A stretch of 64,000 bases of DNA from Actinomycetota bacterium (lineage in GTDB: Bacteria; Actinomycetota; Acidimicrobiia; Acidimicrobiales; JAJPHD01): NCBI GenBank assembly GCA_021325455.1, contig JAJPHD010000010.1:1-64000 (forward strand). Direction: 5' to 3'. Both the position numbers and the translations under genes were made by a program. Below, in pieces: positions 122 through 5,284 of this stretch. The stretch's first letter is position 1, and the number at the start of each line of letters is the position of its first letter. The notes below the pieces were generated by a model. The model was not told the origin of the DNA. It worked only from the letters and a program-made list of their open reading frames with translations, and made no database searches.

Positions 122-781
122 ATGAACCCGGGCGTGCTGACCGTGCTGCGGGACTTCGTGCCGATCCGGCCACTCACCCGGACCGAGGCCTACCGGATCG
201 CCGAGCTTCAAGCTGCCCGGTTCTTGAAGATCATGCAGGTAAACGAAGTGCCAATCAACGAGCGGATCATTTCGGAGCAGCCGCGATTGCAGGTGCAACG
301 CTTCAGCCCACTGCCGGTATCGGGCGCTACTCAGTGGTCCAACGGTCGCTGGATGATCATCCTGAACGCCAACGAGTCGATCGCCCGGCAGCGCTTCTCA
401 CTGGCACACGAGTTCAAGCACATCATCGACCACCGCTTCATCGACATCCTCTACGCCCGCGTTGCCGAAGATGACCGGGAAGACTTTGTCGAGAGCATCT
501 GCGACTACTTCGCTGGCTGCCTCCTCGTGCCCCGACCCTGGCTGAAGAAGGCTTGGGGCGAAGGCATCCAACGGCCGGCAGACCTGGCTACTCACTTCGG
601 TGTCTCCCAGCAGGCCATCCAGGTCCGGCTCTCCCAAACCGGTCTCACCGGACGCCAGCGTCGTTGCGGACAGACGGCGAGCGACTGGCGCTTGCCCCGA
701 TTCCCCCGAACTGGTACCCCCGAGAGTTACCACCGCCGCGCCCTGGCAGCAGCGGGATCGTCGGAGAAAGGACTTGCATGA
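122..781 (+). CDS. ImmA/IrrE-family metallo-endopeptidase
   Basis: This 219-residue protein carries the zinc-peptidase signature LAHEFKHIIDH near residue 100 (HExxH), followed by a conserved acidic/Asp-Tyr-Phe stretch (ICDYFAGCLLVPRPW) typical of the IrrE/ImmA (DUF955) family. Family members cleave repressors of mobile elements or act in toxin-antitoxin and stress circuits. The ATG at 122 is preceded by a good ribosome site (AAGAAGGGCGTC). The stop TGA overlaps the ATG of the serine recombinase downstream (ATGA), so the two are almost certainly co-translated. An ImmA-like peptidase next to an integrase is the usual control module of an integrative element. The cognate repressor is not in the window; bases 1-121 hold only a short open frame ending in TAG at 101-103 that could be its tail, which cannot be shown. 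Confidence 0.85.
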   Translation: MNPGVLTVLRDFVPIRPLTRTEAYRIAELQAARFLKIMQVNEVPINERIISEQPRLQVQRFSPLPVSGATQWSNGRWMIILNANESIARQRFSLAHEFKHIIDHRFIDILYARVAEDDREDFVESICDYFAGCLLVPRPWLKKAWGEGIQRPADLATHFGVSQQAIQVRLSQTGLTGRQRRCGQTASDWRLPRFPRTGTPESYHRRALAAAGSSEKGLA

Positions 782-2493
782 GCAGCACCGCTTCCTTGCC
801 GAACGAGTTACCGGCGAGCGCGCATCGCTCCAACCAGCGCCGCAAGCTCCCACCTCGCCTAACAACAGTGAACGGTAACTGCCGTGCCGTCATCTACCTA
901 CGGGTATCGACTGCCGGGCAGGTGCACACCGACCGTGATGCCGAGGGCCTATCTATCCCGGCCCAGCGTGAAGCCTGCTACCGGAAGGCCGAGGCCATCG
1001 GAGCCCAGGTCGTCGAGGAGTACGTCGACGCCGGCGAGTCGGCTCGAAAGAGCGACCGGCCAGCGCTTCAGCGGATGCTCAAGCGGCTCTCCGAGGAGGG
1101 CGACGTCGACTACGTCATCGTCCACAAGGTTGACCGTCTCGCACGCAACCGTGCCGATGACGTGACGATCAACCTGGCGATACGCGAGGCCGGCGCCGCG
1201 CTCGTGTCGGTCACTGAGAACATTGACGAGACCCCCTCCGGCACCCTGCTGCACGGCATCATGGCCTCGATCTCGGAGTTCTACAGCAAGAACCTCGCCG
1301 CCGAGGTCAGCAAGGGCATGGACCAGAAGGCCAAGAAGGGCGGTCGGCCCGGCAAGGCCCCGGTCGGGTACCTCAACACCAGGGAGATGGTCGACGGCAA
1401 CGAGCTCAGGACCATCGTCCTCCACCCGGAGCAAGCCGACCACGTGCGCTGGGCGTTCGAGGCCTACGCCACCGGCGACTACACGGTGCGGACCCTGACC
1501 AACGCACTTAAGGAGCGCGGACTACGCACCAGCCGAAGCCATCGCGAACCGCCCAAGCCGATGAGCCCCTCGAAGGTCGCGTACATGCTCCGCAACGTCT
1601 TCTACGTCGGCGTCGTCGAGTGGAAAGGCGAGCAGTACCCCGGCCGTCACGAGCCGCTCGTCACCCCGGAGGTCTGGGGCAAGGTCCAAGAGATCCTCTC
1701 CTCCCGTGACCAGTCCGGTGAACGGCAGCGCCTCCACCAGCACTACCTCAAGGGCACCGTCTTCTGTGCCCGCTGCAAGCGCCGGCTCGGGTTCCTGGTC
1801 GCCACCGGCCGCAACGGCGGCAAGTACGACTACTTCTTCTGCTACGGCAGGCAGGCCAAGAACGGCTGCGACCTGCCGTTCCTCACCACGACCGCCGTCG
1901 AGGAGGCCGTCTCCGACGCCTACGGCGACATCGAGCTCGGCACCGCCCTCAGCGAGGAGGTCCGAGAGAAGCTCCTCGGTGCCCTGAAGCGCTCCACCGC
2001 TGGCCTGGAGCGGGAACGCAAGCGACGAGCTGAACGAGTCAACGACCTCAAGAACCAGCGACGACGCCTCGTGCAGGGGCATCTCGCCGGGGTCATCCCA
2101 ATCGATCTGGTCAAGGAGGAACGGGAGCGGATCGAGGCAGAGCTATACGACGCCGAGAAGCAGCTCCTGGAGACCGCCGTCGACTGGGACACCATCGAGA
2201 CCAACCTCACCCTGGCCATGGGCCTCGTGTCGGACTGCCAGCAGGCCTACCGACGGGGTGGGCCACGGGTGCGGCGACGCTACAACCAGGCCTTCTGGGA
2301 GGCGATCTACGTCGACGTCGATGGGGTCAGTTACGGCAGGTTGGCTGCACCGTTTCACCAGGTGCTACCACCAGAGATCACGGAACGGGTTGAAACAACA
2401 GAAAACCCCGACGCACATCAACGTGGTCGGGGTTTGAGTAAGAACGAATTGGTGGGCGCTGAGGGACTCGAACCCCCGGCCTGGTGGTTGTAA
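778..2493 (+). CDS. Large serine recombinase (integrase) of an integrated element
   Basis: The 571-residue protein has an N-terminal resolvase domain with catalytic serine in YLRVST (about residue 44), the DRLAR helix motif, then the Recombinase domain (GKAPVGY onward), a zinc ribbon near residues 330-365 (FCARCKRRLG and FFCYG...GCDLPF) and a coiled coil at about 405-465. This is the architecture of large serine integrases that insert and excise phages and integrative elements. The start is the ATG at 778, overlapping the stop of the ImmA-like gene. The last codons read through a hairpin and 41 bases of an antisense tRNA-Val gene, giving the tail VGAEGLEPPAWWL, so the C-terminus is set by the attachment site. 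The rest of the element lies left of the window. Confidence 0.93.
   Translation: MSSTASLPNELPASAHRSNQRRKLPPRLTTVNGNCRAVIYLRVSTAGQVHTDRDAEGLSIPAQREACYRKAEAIGAQVVEEYVDAGESARKSDRPALQRMLKRLSEEGDVDYVIVHKVDRLARNRADDVTINLAIREAGAALVSVTENIDETPSGTLLHGIMASISEFYSKNLAAEVSKGMDQKAKKGGRPGKAPVGYLNTREMVDGNELRTIVLHPEQADHVRWAFEAYATGDYTVRTLTNALKERGLRTSRSHREPPKPMSPSKVAYMLRNVFYVGVVEWKGEQYPGRHEPLVTPEVWGKVQEILSSRDQSGERQRLHQHYLKGTVFCARCKRRLGFLVATGRNGGKYDYFFCYGRQAKNGCDLPFLTTTAVEEAVSDAYGDIELGTALSEEVREKLLGALKRSTAGLERERKRRAERVNDLKNQRRRLVQGHLAGVIPIDLVKEERERIEAELYDAEKQLLETAVDWDTIETNLTLAMGLVSDCQQAYRRGGPRVRRRYNQAFWEAIYVDVDGVSYGRLAAPFHQVLPPEITERVETTENPDAHQRGRGLSKNELVGAEGLEPPAWWL
2403..2435 (-). terminator. Hairpin terminator of tRNA-Val(UAC)
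   Basis: A perfect 10-base inverted repeat (AAACCCCGAC at 2403-2412, GTCGGGGTTT at 2426-2435) with a 13-base loop. Read on the minus strand it lies just beyond the tRNA 3' end and is followed by TTTTCTGTTGTTTC, so it looks like an intrinsic terminator for the tRNA. It also sits inside the integrase reading frame and could be part of the recombination site. Confidence 0.7.
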
Positions 2494-2525
2494 GCCACCT
2501 GCTCTGCCACCTGAGCTAAGCGCCC
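2453..2525 (-). tRNA. tRNA-Val (anticodon UAC)
   Basis: The 73-base cloverleaf has acceptor arms GGGCGCT/AGCGCCC, D arm GCTCAGGTGGCAGAGC, anticodon stem GGTGG/CCACC around loop CTTACAA (anticodon UAC), and T loop TTCGAGT. CCA is not encoded. The integrase gene ends inside the 3' half, from the anticodon loop to the discriminator base, which is the usual position of an integration core. Confidence 0.95.
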
Positions 2526-2564
2526 GCCGCTCCTACGGTAGCCATCCGAGGCGTTGCTCCCGCG

Positions 2565-2945
2565 TCAAGGTCGGGGTGACGGGCCGCCCCCATCCGCAGC
2601 GCCTGGCCCGGCGCCGAGGTCGATCTCCGCCTGGCAGCGGCCATCGCAGTCCAGGATGCCGATGTCGTCTATGGCCACCCTGGCCAGCTCCTCCCTGCCG
2701 GCCGCCCGTGACTGCCCGGCCGGGACCTCTCCCCGCACCGAGCTCTGCCAGAGGCCGAGGCCCTCCTGGACCTCGTAGCCGCGGGCCCTCAGGGCACCGA
2801 GCACCCGGCTGGCCTCGGCCTGGGCCTCGGCGAAGGTGTGCCGCCTGACCTGGACCGGGCCCGGCCCCCGCCGACGGCCAGGATCCCCGGCTCCTGCCAC
2901 CAGGGCTCCAGCCAGCGAGATCTCGTAGTGGTGGACCGGCGCCAT
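2565..2945 (-). CDS. Hypothetical protein (126 aa)
   Basis: I do not recognise a family. The protein is 126 residues, with a plausible globular middle (VRRHTFAEAQAEASRVLGAL and WQSSVRGEVPAG) and a Gly/Pro-rich tail. There is no signal peptide or membrane segment. The ATG at 2945 directly follows GGGAG, which is too close for an ideal ribosome site, so the true start may lie slightly inside. The gene lies downstream of the WhiB7-like gene on the same strand, separated by a strong hairpin. Its reading frame avoids stops on a strand where overlapping frames are also open, so its reality is only moderately supported. Confidence 0.45.
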   Translation of the reverse strand: MAPVHHYEISLAGALVAGAGDPGRRRGPGPVQVRRHTFAEAQAEASRVLGALRARGYEVQEGLGLWQSSVRGEVPAGQSRAAGREELARVAIDDIGILDCDGRCQAEIDLGAGPGAADGGGPSPRP

Positions 2946-2970
2946 CTCCCGATCCTGGCACGAACAGGGC

Positions 2971-3016
2971 GATGCCGGCGGGAGCGGGCTCTAAGCCAAC
3001 GCCTCCCGCCGGCATC
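2971..3016 (-). terminator. Strong hairpin after the WhiB7-like gene
   Basis: A perfect 14-base inverted repeat (GATGCCGGCGGGAG at 2971-2984 and its complement at 3003-3016) with an 18-base loop, 76 bases beyond the stop of the WhiB7-like gene. It has no clear U tract, which is common for actinobacterial terminators. Confidence 0.6.
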
Positions 3017-3091
3017 TGGGGGGGTGTCCCACATCTACCCCCTGGGGGGGAATCGAAACAAGTCACTCCCGATTTTCTGGAGATCCTTGCA

Positions 3092-3463
3092 TCAGGCCGT
3101 GAGCTGAGCCCGCTCGGACTTGGGCGGGCGACCCCTCTTGCGCTTGAAGGCCAGCACCTTGCCGTTGGCGAACAGCTGGCCTCCCCACACCCCCCACGGC
3201 TCGCCCCGCTCGAGGGCCCCCGCCAGGCAGGGGGACATGAGCGGGCACCGCTGGCAGACGGCCTTGGCCCGGGCGATGTCATCGAGCTGCTCGGAGAAGA
3301 AGAGGCTCACCATGGTGCCCGCCCCATCCCGGCACCGGGCCTCGGCCCAGGGGTCACCCTCGTCCCCCCGGGCCAAGCCACCCAGAATCTGGCTCAGGCC
3401 CCCGGGCGCCACCCGCTCCCCTCCTGCCGGCCGCCGTGGCCGGCCTTGCTGTTCGGCGAGCAT
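3092..3463 (-). CDS. whiB7: WhiB-family iron-sulfur regulator, WhiB7/WblC-like
   Basis: The protein has 123 residues. Four cysteines (C44, C70, C73, C79; spacing C-x2-C-x5-C) would bind the [4Fe-4S] cluster. They are followed by EPWGVWGGQLF at 88-98, the sigma-A-contacting turn, and by the C-terminal AT-hook KRKRGRPPKSE. The AT-hook and the EPWGVWGG form are characteristic of WhiB7/WblC, the activator of intrinsic antibiotic-resistance genes. The ATG at 3463 has a good ribosome site (AAAGGGGACGGCGAC). Longer upstream in-frame codons exist but cross a hairpin. The leader contains a terminator-like hairpin preceded by a small ORF, as expected for an attenuation-controlled whiB7. Assignment to the WhiB family is secure; the WhiB7 subgroup rests on the motif match. 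Confidence 0.88.
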   Translation of the reverse strand: MLAEQQGRPRRPAGGERVAPGGLSQILGGLARGDEGDPWAEARCRDGAGTMVSLFFSEQLDDIARAKAVCQRCPLMSPCLAGALERGEPWGVWGGQLFANGKVLAFKRKRGRPPKSERAQLTA

Positions 3464-3527
3464 GTCGCCGTCCCCTTTCGTAGTGATCGAGTCTTGTCCT
3501 GCTTGCGTCTCTCCCCGAGAAACAAAG

Positions 3528-3552
3528 AGGCCGCCGGCATAGCCGGCGGCCT
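3528..3552 (-). promoter_or_regulatory. Terminator-like attenuator hairpin in the whiB7 leader
   Basis: An 11-base perfect inverted repeat (AGGCCGCCGGC and its complement, loop ATA) read on the minus strand is followed by a T-rich run (CTTTGTTTCT). It lies 65 bases upstream of the whiB7 ATG and 27 bases downstream of a small ORF. This geometry suits conditional transcription termination coupled to translation of the leader ORF. Confidence 0.6.
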
Positions 3553-3579
3553 GTGGGCCAGTACCTGGAAGATGCTGGA

Positions 3580-3768
3580 CTACCCAGCTCTCGCTCCTCC
3601 AGGTGGGCCCGTCGGCCGCACAGCCGGCCCGTCGATGAGGCGGGTCTTGGCCAGCTGGTTGAAGTTGGTGCGCACCCCGGTGCCGCCGGAGGTCCCGATG
3701 CCGGCCGGAGGCGCGCTCCACCCCATGCTGGCCTTGGCAGTGTCCACCGCCGTCATCCGGTTGAGCAT
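3580..3768 (-). CDS. Small leader ORF upstream of whiB7 (62 aa)
   Basis: A 62-codon ORF starts at the ATG at 3768, preceded by a very strong ribosome site (GGAGAGGAGGGACGCG). It ends 27 bases before the attenuator-like hairpin. The peptide (starting MLNRMTAVDTAKASMG) matches no family I know and has no membrane segment. In Streptomyces and mycobacteria, whiB7/wblC is controlled by a translated upstream ORF whose stalling prevents leader termination, and position and strength here fit that role. It could instead be an independent small protein. Confidence 0.6.
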   Translation of the reverse strand: MLNRMTAVDTAKASMGWSAPPAGIGTSGGTGVRTNFNQLAKTRLIDGPAVRPTGPPGGARAG

Positions 3769-3865
3769 CGCGTCCCTCCTCTCCGGGGGCTTCATCCGCC
3801 GGTGGTCACCGGGGGGCAGGGGCATCTCCCCGCCGCTCCATCCGACCACGGCCCCGGCACCTGAG

Positions 3866-4678
3866 TCAACCCCTTTTTCGGTGCCGCTCGGTGCCCCCGC
3901 CCGGGGACACCCGCTCCCGTTCCCTCGCCTCGACGATCTCGCTGCGACCGGACAGGAGCTGGTCGAGGAGCTCGGCCGTGCCGGCCCCCACCACCGAGCG
4001 GCGCTCCCCGCTGACCCGCACCACCAGGTCCCGGCCCTCGCCGTCCACCACGTGAGCACCGGACTCCTGGCACACCAGCAGGGCACCCAGGTAGTCCCAG
4101 GGCGCCAGTCCCCGCCGGCTCAGGTCCACGAAGCCGTCCAGGCGCCCGTCGGCCACTGCGCACAGCTCCAGCGCCGCCGACCCCAGGGCCCGGTACTGGC
4201 GCCATCCCAGGTGGCGCGAGGGCCAACCGTTCACCCCCACCACGGCCCGGCCCATCTCCCGGCAGACCGATGGCCGCACCGGCCGGCCGTCCCGGCGGGA
4301 GCCTTGCCCCCTGACCGCCTCGTAGCGGGGACCGTCAGGGAGCTGGGCGACCACGGCCGCCAACGGGCCCTTGTCGTCCAGGGCGCAGAGGCTGGTGGCA
4401 TAAAAGGGCAGGCGGCGGGAGGCGTTGGTGGACCCGTCCACCGGGTCCACCACCACCAGCACCGGTCGATCGGGCTCGTGCAGCCCGGACTCCTCACTGA
4501 GGACCCCCAGCCCCGCCCGGTCGAGCACCTCGAGGGCAGCGGCGTCGGCAGCGAGGTCAGAACGGTACTGGCCATCCCTGGTCCCGGCCAGGCCCCAGTC
4601 CTCCAGCCCCCCCAGGGCGCCCGCCACGGCATCGGCCGCAGCATGCAGCACCGAGACGAGGTCGGGGTCCTCCGGCAC
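3866..4678 (-). CDS. Inositol-monophosphatase-family phosphatase (CysQ/IMPase-like)
   Basis: The 270-residue protein shows all metal-binding signatures of the lithium-sensitive phosphatase superfamily: SEES at 61-64, DPVDGSTN at 78-85 and APWDYLG near 192-198. Such enzymes remove phosphate from inositol phosphates or from 3'-phosphoadenosine 5'-phosphate (CysQ); sequence alone does not separate these. The C-terminal 30 residues are basic and divergent. The start is GTG at 4678, with TACGGT six bases upstream and no ribosome site, so the mRNA is probably leaderless. It is divergent from the gene at 4724. Confidence 0.85.
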   Translation of the reverse strand: MPEDPDLVSVLHAAADAVAGALGGLEDWGLAGTRDGQYRSDLAADAAALEVLDRAGLGVLSEESGLHEPDRPVLVVVDPVDGSTNASRRLPFYATSLCALDDKGPLAAVVAQLPDGPRYEAVRGQGSRRDGRPVRPSVCREMGRAVVGVNGWPSRHLGWRQYRALGSAALELCAVADGRLDGFVDLSRRGLAPWDYLGALLVCQESGAHVVDGEGRDLVVRVSGERRSVVGAGTAELLDQLLSGRSEIVEARERERVSPGGGTERHRKRG

Positions 4679-4684
4679 CCGCCC

Positions 4685-4690
4685 ACCGTA
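4685..4690 (-). promoter_or_regulatory. -10 box of leaderless CysQ-like gene
   Basis: TACGGT lies six bases before the GTG at 4678, with no ribosome site between. Confidence 0.55.
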
Positions 4691-4709
4691 GCCCGGGGCC
4701 GCGTAGCGT

Positions 4710-4715
4710 TAGGCT
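4710..4715 (+). promoter_or_regulatory. -10 box of leaderless gene at 4724
   Basis: TAGGCT lies eight bases before the GTG at 4724; no ribosome site is present. Confidence 0.5.
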
Positions 4716-4723
4716 CTGGCGTC

Positions 4724-5284
4724 GTGGCCGTCATCGATGTACCGGGTTACGTGGCCGAGCTCAAGGAGCATGCCGTCGATCACGGGTTCCATGTCCATGA
4801 CGAGCGTCACTTCGTCGAGACCTACTCGCTGCGCCAGGTATGGGAGGTGGACCTCCACCCGGAGGAGGGGTGCGGCGGGCCCATCGACCTCCACCTCTCC
4901 CTGGAGGTGGACCCCCGGGTGCTGCTCTCGTTCGAGGACGCCGTCATGGACCTGCCCGACGACGCCGACCCACCCGATGAGTTCCACTTCCCCCTGGTCT
5001 TCACCTGGGGCCTCCCCCCCCTCCCCGAGGGCCCGGACCTCCTGCGCCTGGCCATCGACCTGGCCGGAGTGGGAGGGATCGAGCTCCCGGTGGAGGTCTC
5101 TGCCATCGACTCCTTCGCCTCCCCCACCGACGCCCCCGAGCGCCGCCTCACCGTGGTGGCCCACCAGCAGGTGTCGCTGGCCCGGGTGCTGGCCGGCGAG
5201 GAGCTGCTGTGCGAGGTCTTCGACCGGTCCCTGGCCGTGAGCCGCTTCCTCCTGGAGCGGGCGCCCGGTTGGCTGCGGAGCTAG
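4724..5284 (+). CDS. Hypothetical protein (186 aa)
   Basis: No family is recognised. The 186-residue protein is acidic and beta-rich in appearance (VWEVDLHP, GPIDLHLSLEVDPRVLLSF, FHFPLVFTWGLPPLP), with a repeated hydrophobic/Asp pattern and no signal peptide or membrane segment, so it is probably cytosolic. The GTG at 4724 is chosen because the recognisable protein begins there and TAGGCT sits at leaderless distance. A much longer upstream open frame through the complementary strand of the CysQ-like and whiB7 genes is an artefact of high G+C. The next gene, a lipoprotein, follows on the same strand after 47 bases. Confidence 0.7.
   Translation: MAVIDVPGYVAELKEHAVDHGFHVHDERHFVETYSLRQVWEVDLHPEEGCGGPIDLHLSLEVDPRVLLSFEDAVMDLPDDADPPDEFHFPLVFTWGLPPLPEGPDLLRLAIDLAGVGGIELPVEVSAIDSFASPTDAPERRLTVVAHQQVSLARVLAGEELLCEVFDRSLAVSRFLLERAPGWLRS

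Follow-up and report, generated by a model that had tools for sequence, protein, structure and literature searches.

A uORF attenuator predicted upstream of whiB7 in the Acidimicrobiales, with leader peptides of broad amino acid content

The 64,000-nucleotide stretch of Acidimicrobiales DNA analyzed here, which we call the window, carries a whiB-like gene preceded by a short upstream open reading frame (uORF) and a GC-rich hairpin. What does this leader do, and does the content of its peptide matter? A preliminary description had listed, on the minus strand, a ribosome site, a 62-codon ORF, 27 bases, an 11-bp hairpin with a T-rich run, and a whiB7-like gene with its own ribosome site, an order that we confirmed base for base. 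The uORF (3580 to 3768, stop codon TAG at 3582-3580) encodes a putative leader peptide, is preceded by the ribosome site AGGAGG (3775 to 3780), and has G+C contents of.63,.68, and.85 at its three codon positions. It is followed by the 27-nt spacer (3579-3553) and an intrinsic terminator hairpin (3528 to 3552; 11 bp including 10 G-C pairs, loop of 3, −24.4 kcal/mol) with the T-rich tail CTTTGTTTCT (3518 to 3527). The hairpin ends 64 nt before the start of the downstream gene (3092 to 3463, minus strand, 123 codons), whose ribosome site is GAAAGGGG (3472 to 3479). A terminator scan of 2.5 kb returned three sites versus 0.3 expected from shuffled sequence; one is the leader hairpin, and the remaining two, which overlap, lie within whiB7 on the plus strand. 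An Rfam search found no family at threshold for the window leader. Two features were absent from the preliminary description: an antiterminator (3619-3606 with 3559-3546) and a promoter (3879-3840).

The downstream gene is a WhiB7 (WblC) ortholog, as judged by its four cysteines, a G-V/I-WGG motif, and an RGRP AT-hook, the last two retained in alignments as EPWGVWGG and KRGRPPK. It matches the Pfam family Whib (E = 2.7e−15), and its top PDB match is WhiB7 (7kif, E = 2.8e−17), which we take to be the Mycobacterium tuberculosis protein, followed by WhiB3 (7e−9), WhiB1, and WhiB4. An NCBIfam search with the same protein gave no match. Within the window's order, 182 of 298 genomes had a WhiB7 match at E ≤ 1e−22, and the closest named WhiB7 loci are titled mostly Acidimicrobiia, Acidimicrobiales, Ilumatobacteraceae, or only Actinomycetota. 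Some genomes (e.g., G006 and G133) contain two or three whiB7 copies; at locus L034 of G006, the better-matching copy has no uORF-terminator leader, and a neighboring copy has one. Elsewhere in the window, positions 122-2525 look like the end of an integrated element, with genes for an ImmA/IrrE-type peptidase (122-781, plus strand) and a large serine recombinase (553-2493, plus strand; Resolvase, Recombinase, and zinc ribbon domains), the 3′ end of the latter overlapping a tRNA-Val gene (2450-2525, minus strand). A 126-codon ORF directly downstream of whiB7 on the same strand (2565-2945) has no Pfam or NCBIfam match, and a scan for ABC transporters returned 51 matches, nothing specific.

Conservation of the hairpin and uORF in the whiB7 leaders of relatives, which the preliminary description had proposed as a check, was found across the order. 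The sample comprised 138 regions upstream of whiB7 from 137 loci, and the layout was defined as an ORF of at least 20 codons followed, 15 to 40 nt after its stop, by a hairpin and T-rich tail. This layout occurs in 122 of the 138 regions, with actual stop-to-hairpin distances of 19 to 34 nt, versus 16.6% of 2,440 trials in which the ORF rule was applied to random anchors in the same regions. The uORF starts were picked mechanically; a ribosome site of at least 4 matching bases precedes 93 of the 122, while the other 29 score below 4, and some of the picks (e.g., L058 and L083) must be incorrect. The 16 remaining regions fall outside the layout rule partly for technical reasons: L096, L022, and L105 have a core hairpin nearby, L122 and L133 have a more distant one, L103 is cut short, and the other 10 contain none by a stricter pattern, although L108 among these shows one in another scan. 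The terminator 5′ arm reads GGCCGCCGG in 66 of the 122 leaders, GGCCGYCGG in 95, and GCCGYYGG in 112. Within the last 13 uORF codons, 106 of 122 leaders encode R or W followed by P or L, which at the RNA level is GGCY, complementary to the terminator 5′ arm.

The suspected antiterminator pairing was found as well, with compensatory changes, by RNAalifold, covariation, and codon-shuffle folding. In the window, its 5′ strand is GCGGCC-GAC-GGGCC (3606 to 3619, minus strand, codons V-R-P-T-G-P) and its 3′ strand is GGCCC-ACA-GGCCGC (3546 to 3559, minus strand), composed of spacer and part of the terminator 5′ arm; the full hairpin is centered on the uORF stop at about −47 kcal/mol. Comparative and folding evidence predicts that the antiterminator is mutually exclusive with the terminator. 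A second pairing block follows the core after 3 bases and is GGGCC/GGCCC in one subtype or GGAG/CUCC in the other, the two subtypes having been sorted by eye. With an ungapped-arm model, the core was paired in 104 of 121 leaders (L135 was skipped) and in one reading phase in 93 of those 104, counts that favor the model because the motif position was taken as the best pairing. Outer pairs 3 and 4 interchange between G-C and A-U (44/30) and between C-G and G-C (33/26). When pairs were swapped one by one, only 47 of 104 leaders had a pairing of their own that outscored 90% or more of the swaps.

A MAFFT alignment of 60 mixed leaders failed to align the two antiterminator subtypes correctly and was dropped; the covariance model, the pair counts, and RNAalifold therefore cover 31 type I leaders only. 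From these, with the terminator 3′ arm removed, RNAalifold recovered a 12-bp antiterminator helix unaided, with 94.6% paired cells and 17 changed on both sides. Covariation in these 31 leaders was.246 compared to.167 in shuffles (0/500) and at most.111 when the alignment was slid, while the number of pairs with changes on both sides was not unusual (56/500 shuffles). Across both subtypes, strands from the same leader paired better than the average for strands exchanged between distant leaders in 110 of 122 cases, a figure that fell to only 74 of 122 once the terminator core was left out. The native sequence folded at an energy lower than the mean of codon-shuffled uORF tails, which preserve peptide composition, in 121 of 122 leaders (mean z of −3.6; window z of −5.3), and the mean probability that the 5′ arm pairs with the uORF was.76 for a leader's own tail,.67 for swapped tails, and.56 for codon-shuffled tails. 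Under strict filters and at E ≤ 0.01, a covariance model (R1) detected 16 of 59 relatives; coordinate comparison puts each of these hits next to whiB7. The model misses most type II leaders.

A promoter-like pattern recurs upstream of the uORF, for example, GAAAAT-N3-TTGACG-N17/18-TCGGAT. Its candidate parts in the window, all on the minus strand, are an A-rich box of the WhiB7/WblC type, GAAAAA (3874 to 3879), at the position of the relatives' box; a −35 element, TTGACT (3864 to 3869), overlapping the end of an inositol-phosphatase-like gene; and, after an 18-nt spacer, a −10-like TCGGAT (3840 to 3845). This −10 is a weak match to TANNNT, and the form T..GAT is frequent in the 60 relatives displayed. 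For the 121 of 122 leaders with a long enough region, the best promoter score exceeded the shuffled mean in 119, A/T4-N2..6-TTGAC was present upstream of the uORF in 107 (versus 0.5% of shuffles), and TTGAC occurred in 112 (versus 7.7%). The published WblC motif, as given in excerpts of PMC7157823, is GAAAWY located 3 nt upstream of the −35, compared to which the window has GAAAAA and a 4-nt gap. A general promoter scan of 2500-5000 found no sigma-70-like site and missed the candidate leader promoter, too. The exact pattern matched the bacterium's own genome once, at the window site, its reversed control also matched once, and no regulon can be derived. The predicted transcription start, placed from the −10, is about 370 nt upstream of whiB7; for mycobacteria, excerpts of PMC4128351 put it about 350 nt upstream, with a uORF and a terminator-like stem-loop in between.

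The translation-coupled attenuation suggested in the preliminary description is thus supported by the layout, the compensatory pairing, the stability of the fold, and the upstream promoter across the order, and we estimate a probability of about 0.92 that the window carries a uORF attenuator of the whiB7/wblC type. In the proposed mechanism, the promoter upstream of the uORF would be activated by WhiB7 itself, and a ribosome would translate the 62-codon uORF as RNA polymerase transcribes the leader. A ribosome reaching the stop codon would sit in the middle of the long hairpin, so that the antiterminator would be blocked, the 11-bp terminator would form, and whiB7 would not be reached. If the ribosome stalled earlier, because of a drug or a missing charged tRNA, the last uORF codons would pair with the spacer and the terminator 5′ arm as these emerged; the terminator would then come too late, and whiB7 would be transcribed. 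We infer the kinetics, direction, and inducers of the switch, the latter two from the whiB7/wblC literature.

Folding calculations covered successive states of the leader. With the terminator 3′ arm not yet made, all 122 leaders had the 5′ arm paired to the uORF at P >.5; with the RNA covered to 12 nt past the stop, the terminator formed at P >.5, again in all 122. In the complete leader at equilibrium, the terminator was favored (mean P =.87), and the antiterminator was ahead in only six of 122 leaders, the window not among them. Since the terminator wins at equilibrium, the switch must be kinetic and rely on the order of synthesis, on which classical attenuators likewise depend. The 5′ strand of the window antiterminator is positioned 24-37 nt upstream of the stop codon, partly beyond the footprint of a terminating ribosome.

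A plainer explanation of the hairpin would be that it merely ends an upstream operon, consisting of the inositol-phosphatase-like gene and a small protein gene, and that whiB7 has its own promoter farther downstream. The upstream gene is indeed on the same strand and ends at 3866, about 100 nt before the uORF. However, a relative of it is present in only 32 of 122 stretches, many of which extend no more than about 900 nt upstream, whereas the leader remains linked to whiB7, and a plain terminator has no need to pair with the preceding ORF. The box-TTGAC pattern is found before the uORF (107/121) and never between the terminator and whiB7 (0/122), and the scan that missed the proposed promoter offered no sigma-70-like site downstream either, which together make this explanation very improbable. 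Alternatively, the uORF could encode a functional small protein, with the RNA pairing being secondary. A coding-like G+C content at third codon positions (.80 versus.61/.59) and the ribosome sites would fit, as would loose motifs noted by eye in part of the type I leaders, such as W..KP..G near the start. Yet uORF bodies hardly align between families (11% of 780 pairs exceed the 95th percentile of shuffles), substitutions in 22 closer pairs are distributed almost evenly over codon positions 3, 2, and 1 (314/267/251), and the recurring R/W-P/L tail (106/122) tracks the RNA motif GGCY. The window peptide, which the preliminary description did not recognize, likewise has no match in Pfam or NCBIfam; it is unrecognizable because uORF sequence is hardly conserved. 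A small protein as the main product is therefore scarcely credible to us.

For the attenuator, this leaves the amino acid content of the uORFs, which is broader than expected. Composition was analyzed in uORF bodies, i.e., without the start and the last 13 codons, of at least 30 aa (n = 113; 9 of 122 were shorter). A body contains on average 17.8 amino acid types compared to 16.3 expected from pooled composition (0/500) and 15.4 from a per-uORF base-composition null (0/40), while slices of window proteins deviate in the other direction (15.2 observed versus 15.8 expected, 278 slices). Tryptophan occurs once in 83 bodies, not at all in 20, and at least twice in 10; cysteine is single in 71 and tyrosine in 74. 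The places of these single copies are spread along the body (standard deviation of.26-.28 of its length, with.29 for a uniform distribution). Counts of Trp, Cys, Met, and Tyr are under-dispersed, whereas those of Ala, Ser, and Thr are not. The uORF frame gave a z of +11.5 (+6.7 with one leader per family) versus −2.7 to +3.8 for the other five frames, the highest of which was one reverse frame.

Homologous positions also lower dispersion, as in WhiB7 itself (pooled z of 8-9), so a column-specific null is required. Under a column-frequency null, WhiB7 dropped to z values of −0.1 (25 residues) and 0.8 (30 residues), whereas the last 35 body residues of the uORFs gave 9.2 (all, n = 106), 7.0 and 5.7 (the two subtypes, n = 28 and 78), and 5.6 (one per family, n = 36). 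In a position-free test on 40 families, a rare residue that is single in one uORF and absent from the corresponding place in another was present elsewhere in that second uORF in.750 of cases versus.638 expected, an excess of.112 compared to −.040 ±.023 in 60 simulations; close pairs showed little excess (.70 versus.65, n = 436). By region, z was 8.7 in the last 30 codons of the body, 0.4 in the first 30, 2.2 in the first 40, and 1.3 in the 13-codon tail. The excess is located in the 25-40 codons before the antiterminator strand, which is where a stalled ribosome would leave that strand free. A held-out set of 71 named loci yielded 31 new uORFs after 32 near-duplicates and 8 loci without a usable leader were removed; the 23 that were long enough gave z values of 4.5 (body), 4.2 (last 30), 1.6 (first 30), and 2.3 (tails), and all 23 contained Trp. 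Among named relatives, the cultured Ilumatobacter nonamiensis (L194) has the leader layout, and its uORF includes all 20 types. These tests treat related uORFs as independent, and z therefore overstates certainty, but the family-level and held-out subsets agree. The window peptide has 16 of the 20 types (Cys, Glu, His, and Tyr are missing), no more than expected by chance (P =.90). Glutamate is missing from 44 of 113 bodies. Relative to window proteins, uORF bodies contain less Glu (.25-fold), Leu (.50-fold), and Asp (.55-fold) and more Thr and Asn (2.6-fold each), a depletion and enrichment that exceed what an amino acid census alone explains.

Leaders outside the order were compared in the same way. 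The labels "Streptomyces-like" and "Mycobacterium-like" used here were assigned by us on reading the material, not taken from records; the WhiB7 of one such locus (L164) closely matches that of 7kif. A uORF, a spacer, and a terminator are found in Streptomyces-like, Mycobacterium-like, and other Actinomycetota leaders, including those of the named Micrococcales Oerskovia, Cellulomonas, Cellulosimicrobium, and Sanguibacter, while the Brachybacterium hairpin (L235) is doubtful and no terminator was found in L237. Of 92 scored leaders, 91 had the 5′ arm paired to the uORF at P >.5; the scored set is mostly close to the window's group and probably includes a few wrong hairpins (L224, L226, and L235). 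A further search of the phylum that started from another WhiB7 gave largely the same genomes, and its results were left out. Seven of the 99 identifiers were not scored: L189 (short), L208, L210, L213, L223, and L229 (no uORF), and L237 (no terminator). The uORFs from outside the order (n = 44) contain 17.4 types versus 16.1 expected (standard deviation of.20); ten of them are closely similar Streptomyces-like sequences, and a few repeat one genome. For this set, no uORF was found in L261, L262, and L271, and no terminator in L237. All 20 types are present in 9 of 10 Streptomyces-like uORFs and in three uORFs from other genera of the Mycobacterium-like family, and five uORFs of only 37-40 aa from another family lack just 1-3 types. 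Six Mycobacterium-like uORFs (L263, L265, L268, L269, L270, and L275) are rich in Ala (26-37%), with 2-6 types missing, which agrees with the alanine sensing reportedly observed for mycobacterial whiB7.

On balance, we lean slightly toward the view that the peptides encoded by whiB7 leaders in this order, and probably in a large part of the Actinomycetota, are census peptides: selection would maintain about one codon for most amino acids, placed anywhere within the 25-40 codons upstream of the antiterminator strand, so that a shortage of nearly any charged tRNA, or a stalled ribosome, would derepress whiB7. The census may serve to sense uncharged tRNAs. Mycobacterium-like leaders would then have been narrowed toward alanine, and the window uORF would be an ordinary or eroded case. 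A search of titles and the starts of abstracts found no description of a census-type leader peptide, nor of starvation or alanine codons for the whiB7 uORF, although Lee et al. 2022 may mention them. As far as searched, a family-level census appears to be new.

The main competitor to a census of charged tRNAs holds that broad content reflects contexts for drug-induced stalling, or a lack of protein constraint. Chloramphenicol and linezolid stall ribosomes after Ala, Ser, or Thr, residues that are enriched in uORF bodies, and any diverse peptide offers many stall contexts. But base composition alone yields 15.4 types rather than 17.8, the other frames remain far below the uORF frame (−2.7 to +3.8 versus +11.5), under-dispersion affects Trp, Cys, Met, and Tyr and not Ala, Ser, and Thr, and the excess is in the late body (z of 8.7), not in the 30 opening codons (0.4) and not in the tail (1.3). 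We therefore consider this alternative possible though rather unlikely. The RNA logic described here is identical to that of a classical attenuator responding to a single amino acid (trp, his, or ilv type, or alanine as in mycobacterial whiB7), and Ala and Thr are 1.3- and 2.6-fold above the window-protein background. Inspection of the window uORF and the printed uORFs revealed no run of one residue, rare residues occur about once each across the order, and the Ala-rich uORFs observed are the six of one genus-level group, presumably Mycobacterium, which makes a single-residue sensor improbable for the window.

The window element belongs to the known whiB7/wblC attenuator of Streptomyces and mycobacteria. 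The wblC leader of Streptomyces coelicolor and the whiB7 leader of mycobacteria are reportedly the subject of a study by Lee, Lee, and Roe (2022, Mol Microbiol 117:179). Excerpts of PMC11550727, PMC13393426, and PMC12121999 report uORF attenuation in both groups, with the uORF, Rho-independent terminator, antiterminator, positive autoregulation (which we infer for the window), and downstream whiB7 in common with the leader described here. Pairing of the uORF to the terminator is shared with both Streptomyces-like and Mycobacterium-like leaders. In contrast, the window's order has a different leader sequence, an unrelated peptide, and two antiterminator subtypes, and its uORFs are less Ala-rich than the Mycobacterium-like ones. 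Like toiL of Escherichia coli topAI, where, per excerpts of PMC12121999, one uORF answers several classes of ribosome-targeting drugs by stalling at various sites, the whiB7 leader relies on a single uORF; unlike toiL, which unmasks the topAI ribosome site, it controls a Rho-independent terminator. As in the trp, his, and M. tuberculosis ilvB1 attenuators described in excerpts of PMC13236596, the translating ribosome would select the antiterminator or the terminator, but those leaders carry cognate codons, whereas the whiB7 family has about one of each rare amino acid.

The whiB7 attenuator, known experimentally in Streptomyces and mycobacteria, is now placed in the Acidimicrobiia. This is a deep-branching class of the phylum, which suggests that the coupling of ribosome stalling to intrinsic resistance is old. 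Excerpts of a 2025 paper call the response of whiB7 to amino acid starvation intriguing and state that antibiotic stalling in its uORF had not been tested (PMC12121999). If true, the census would explain how one leader senses shortages of many amino acids, and it would predict the codon through which each starvation acts.
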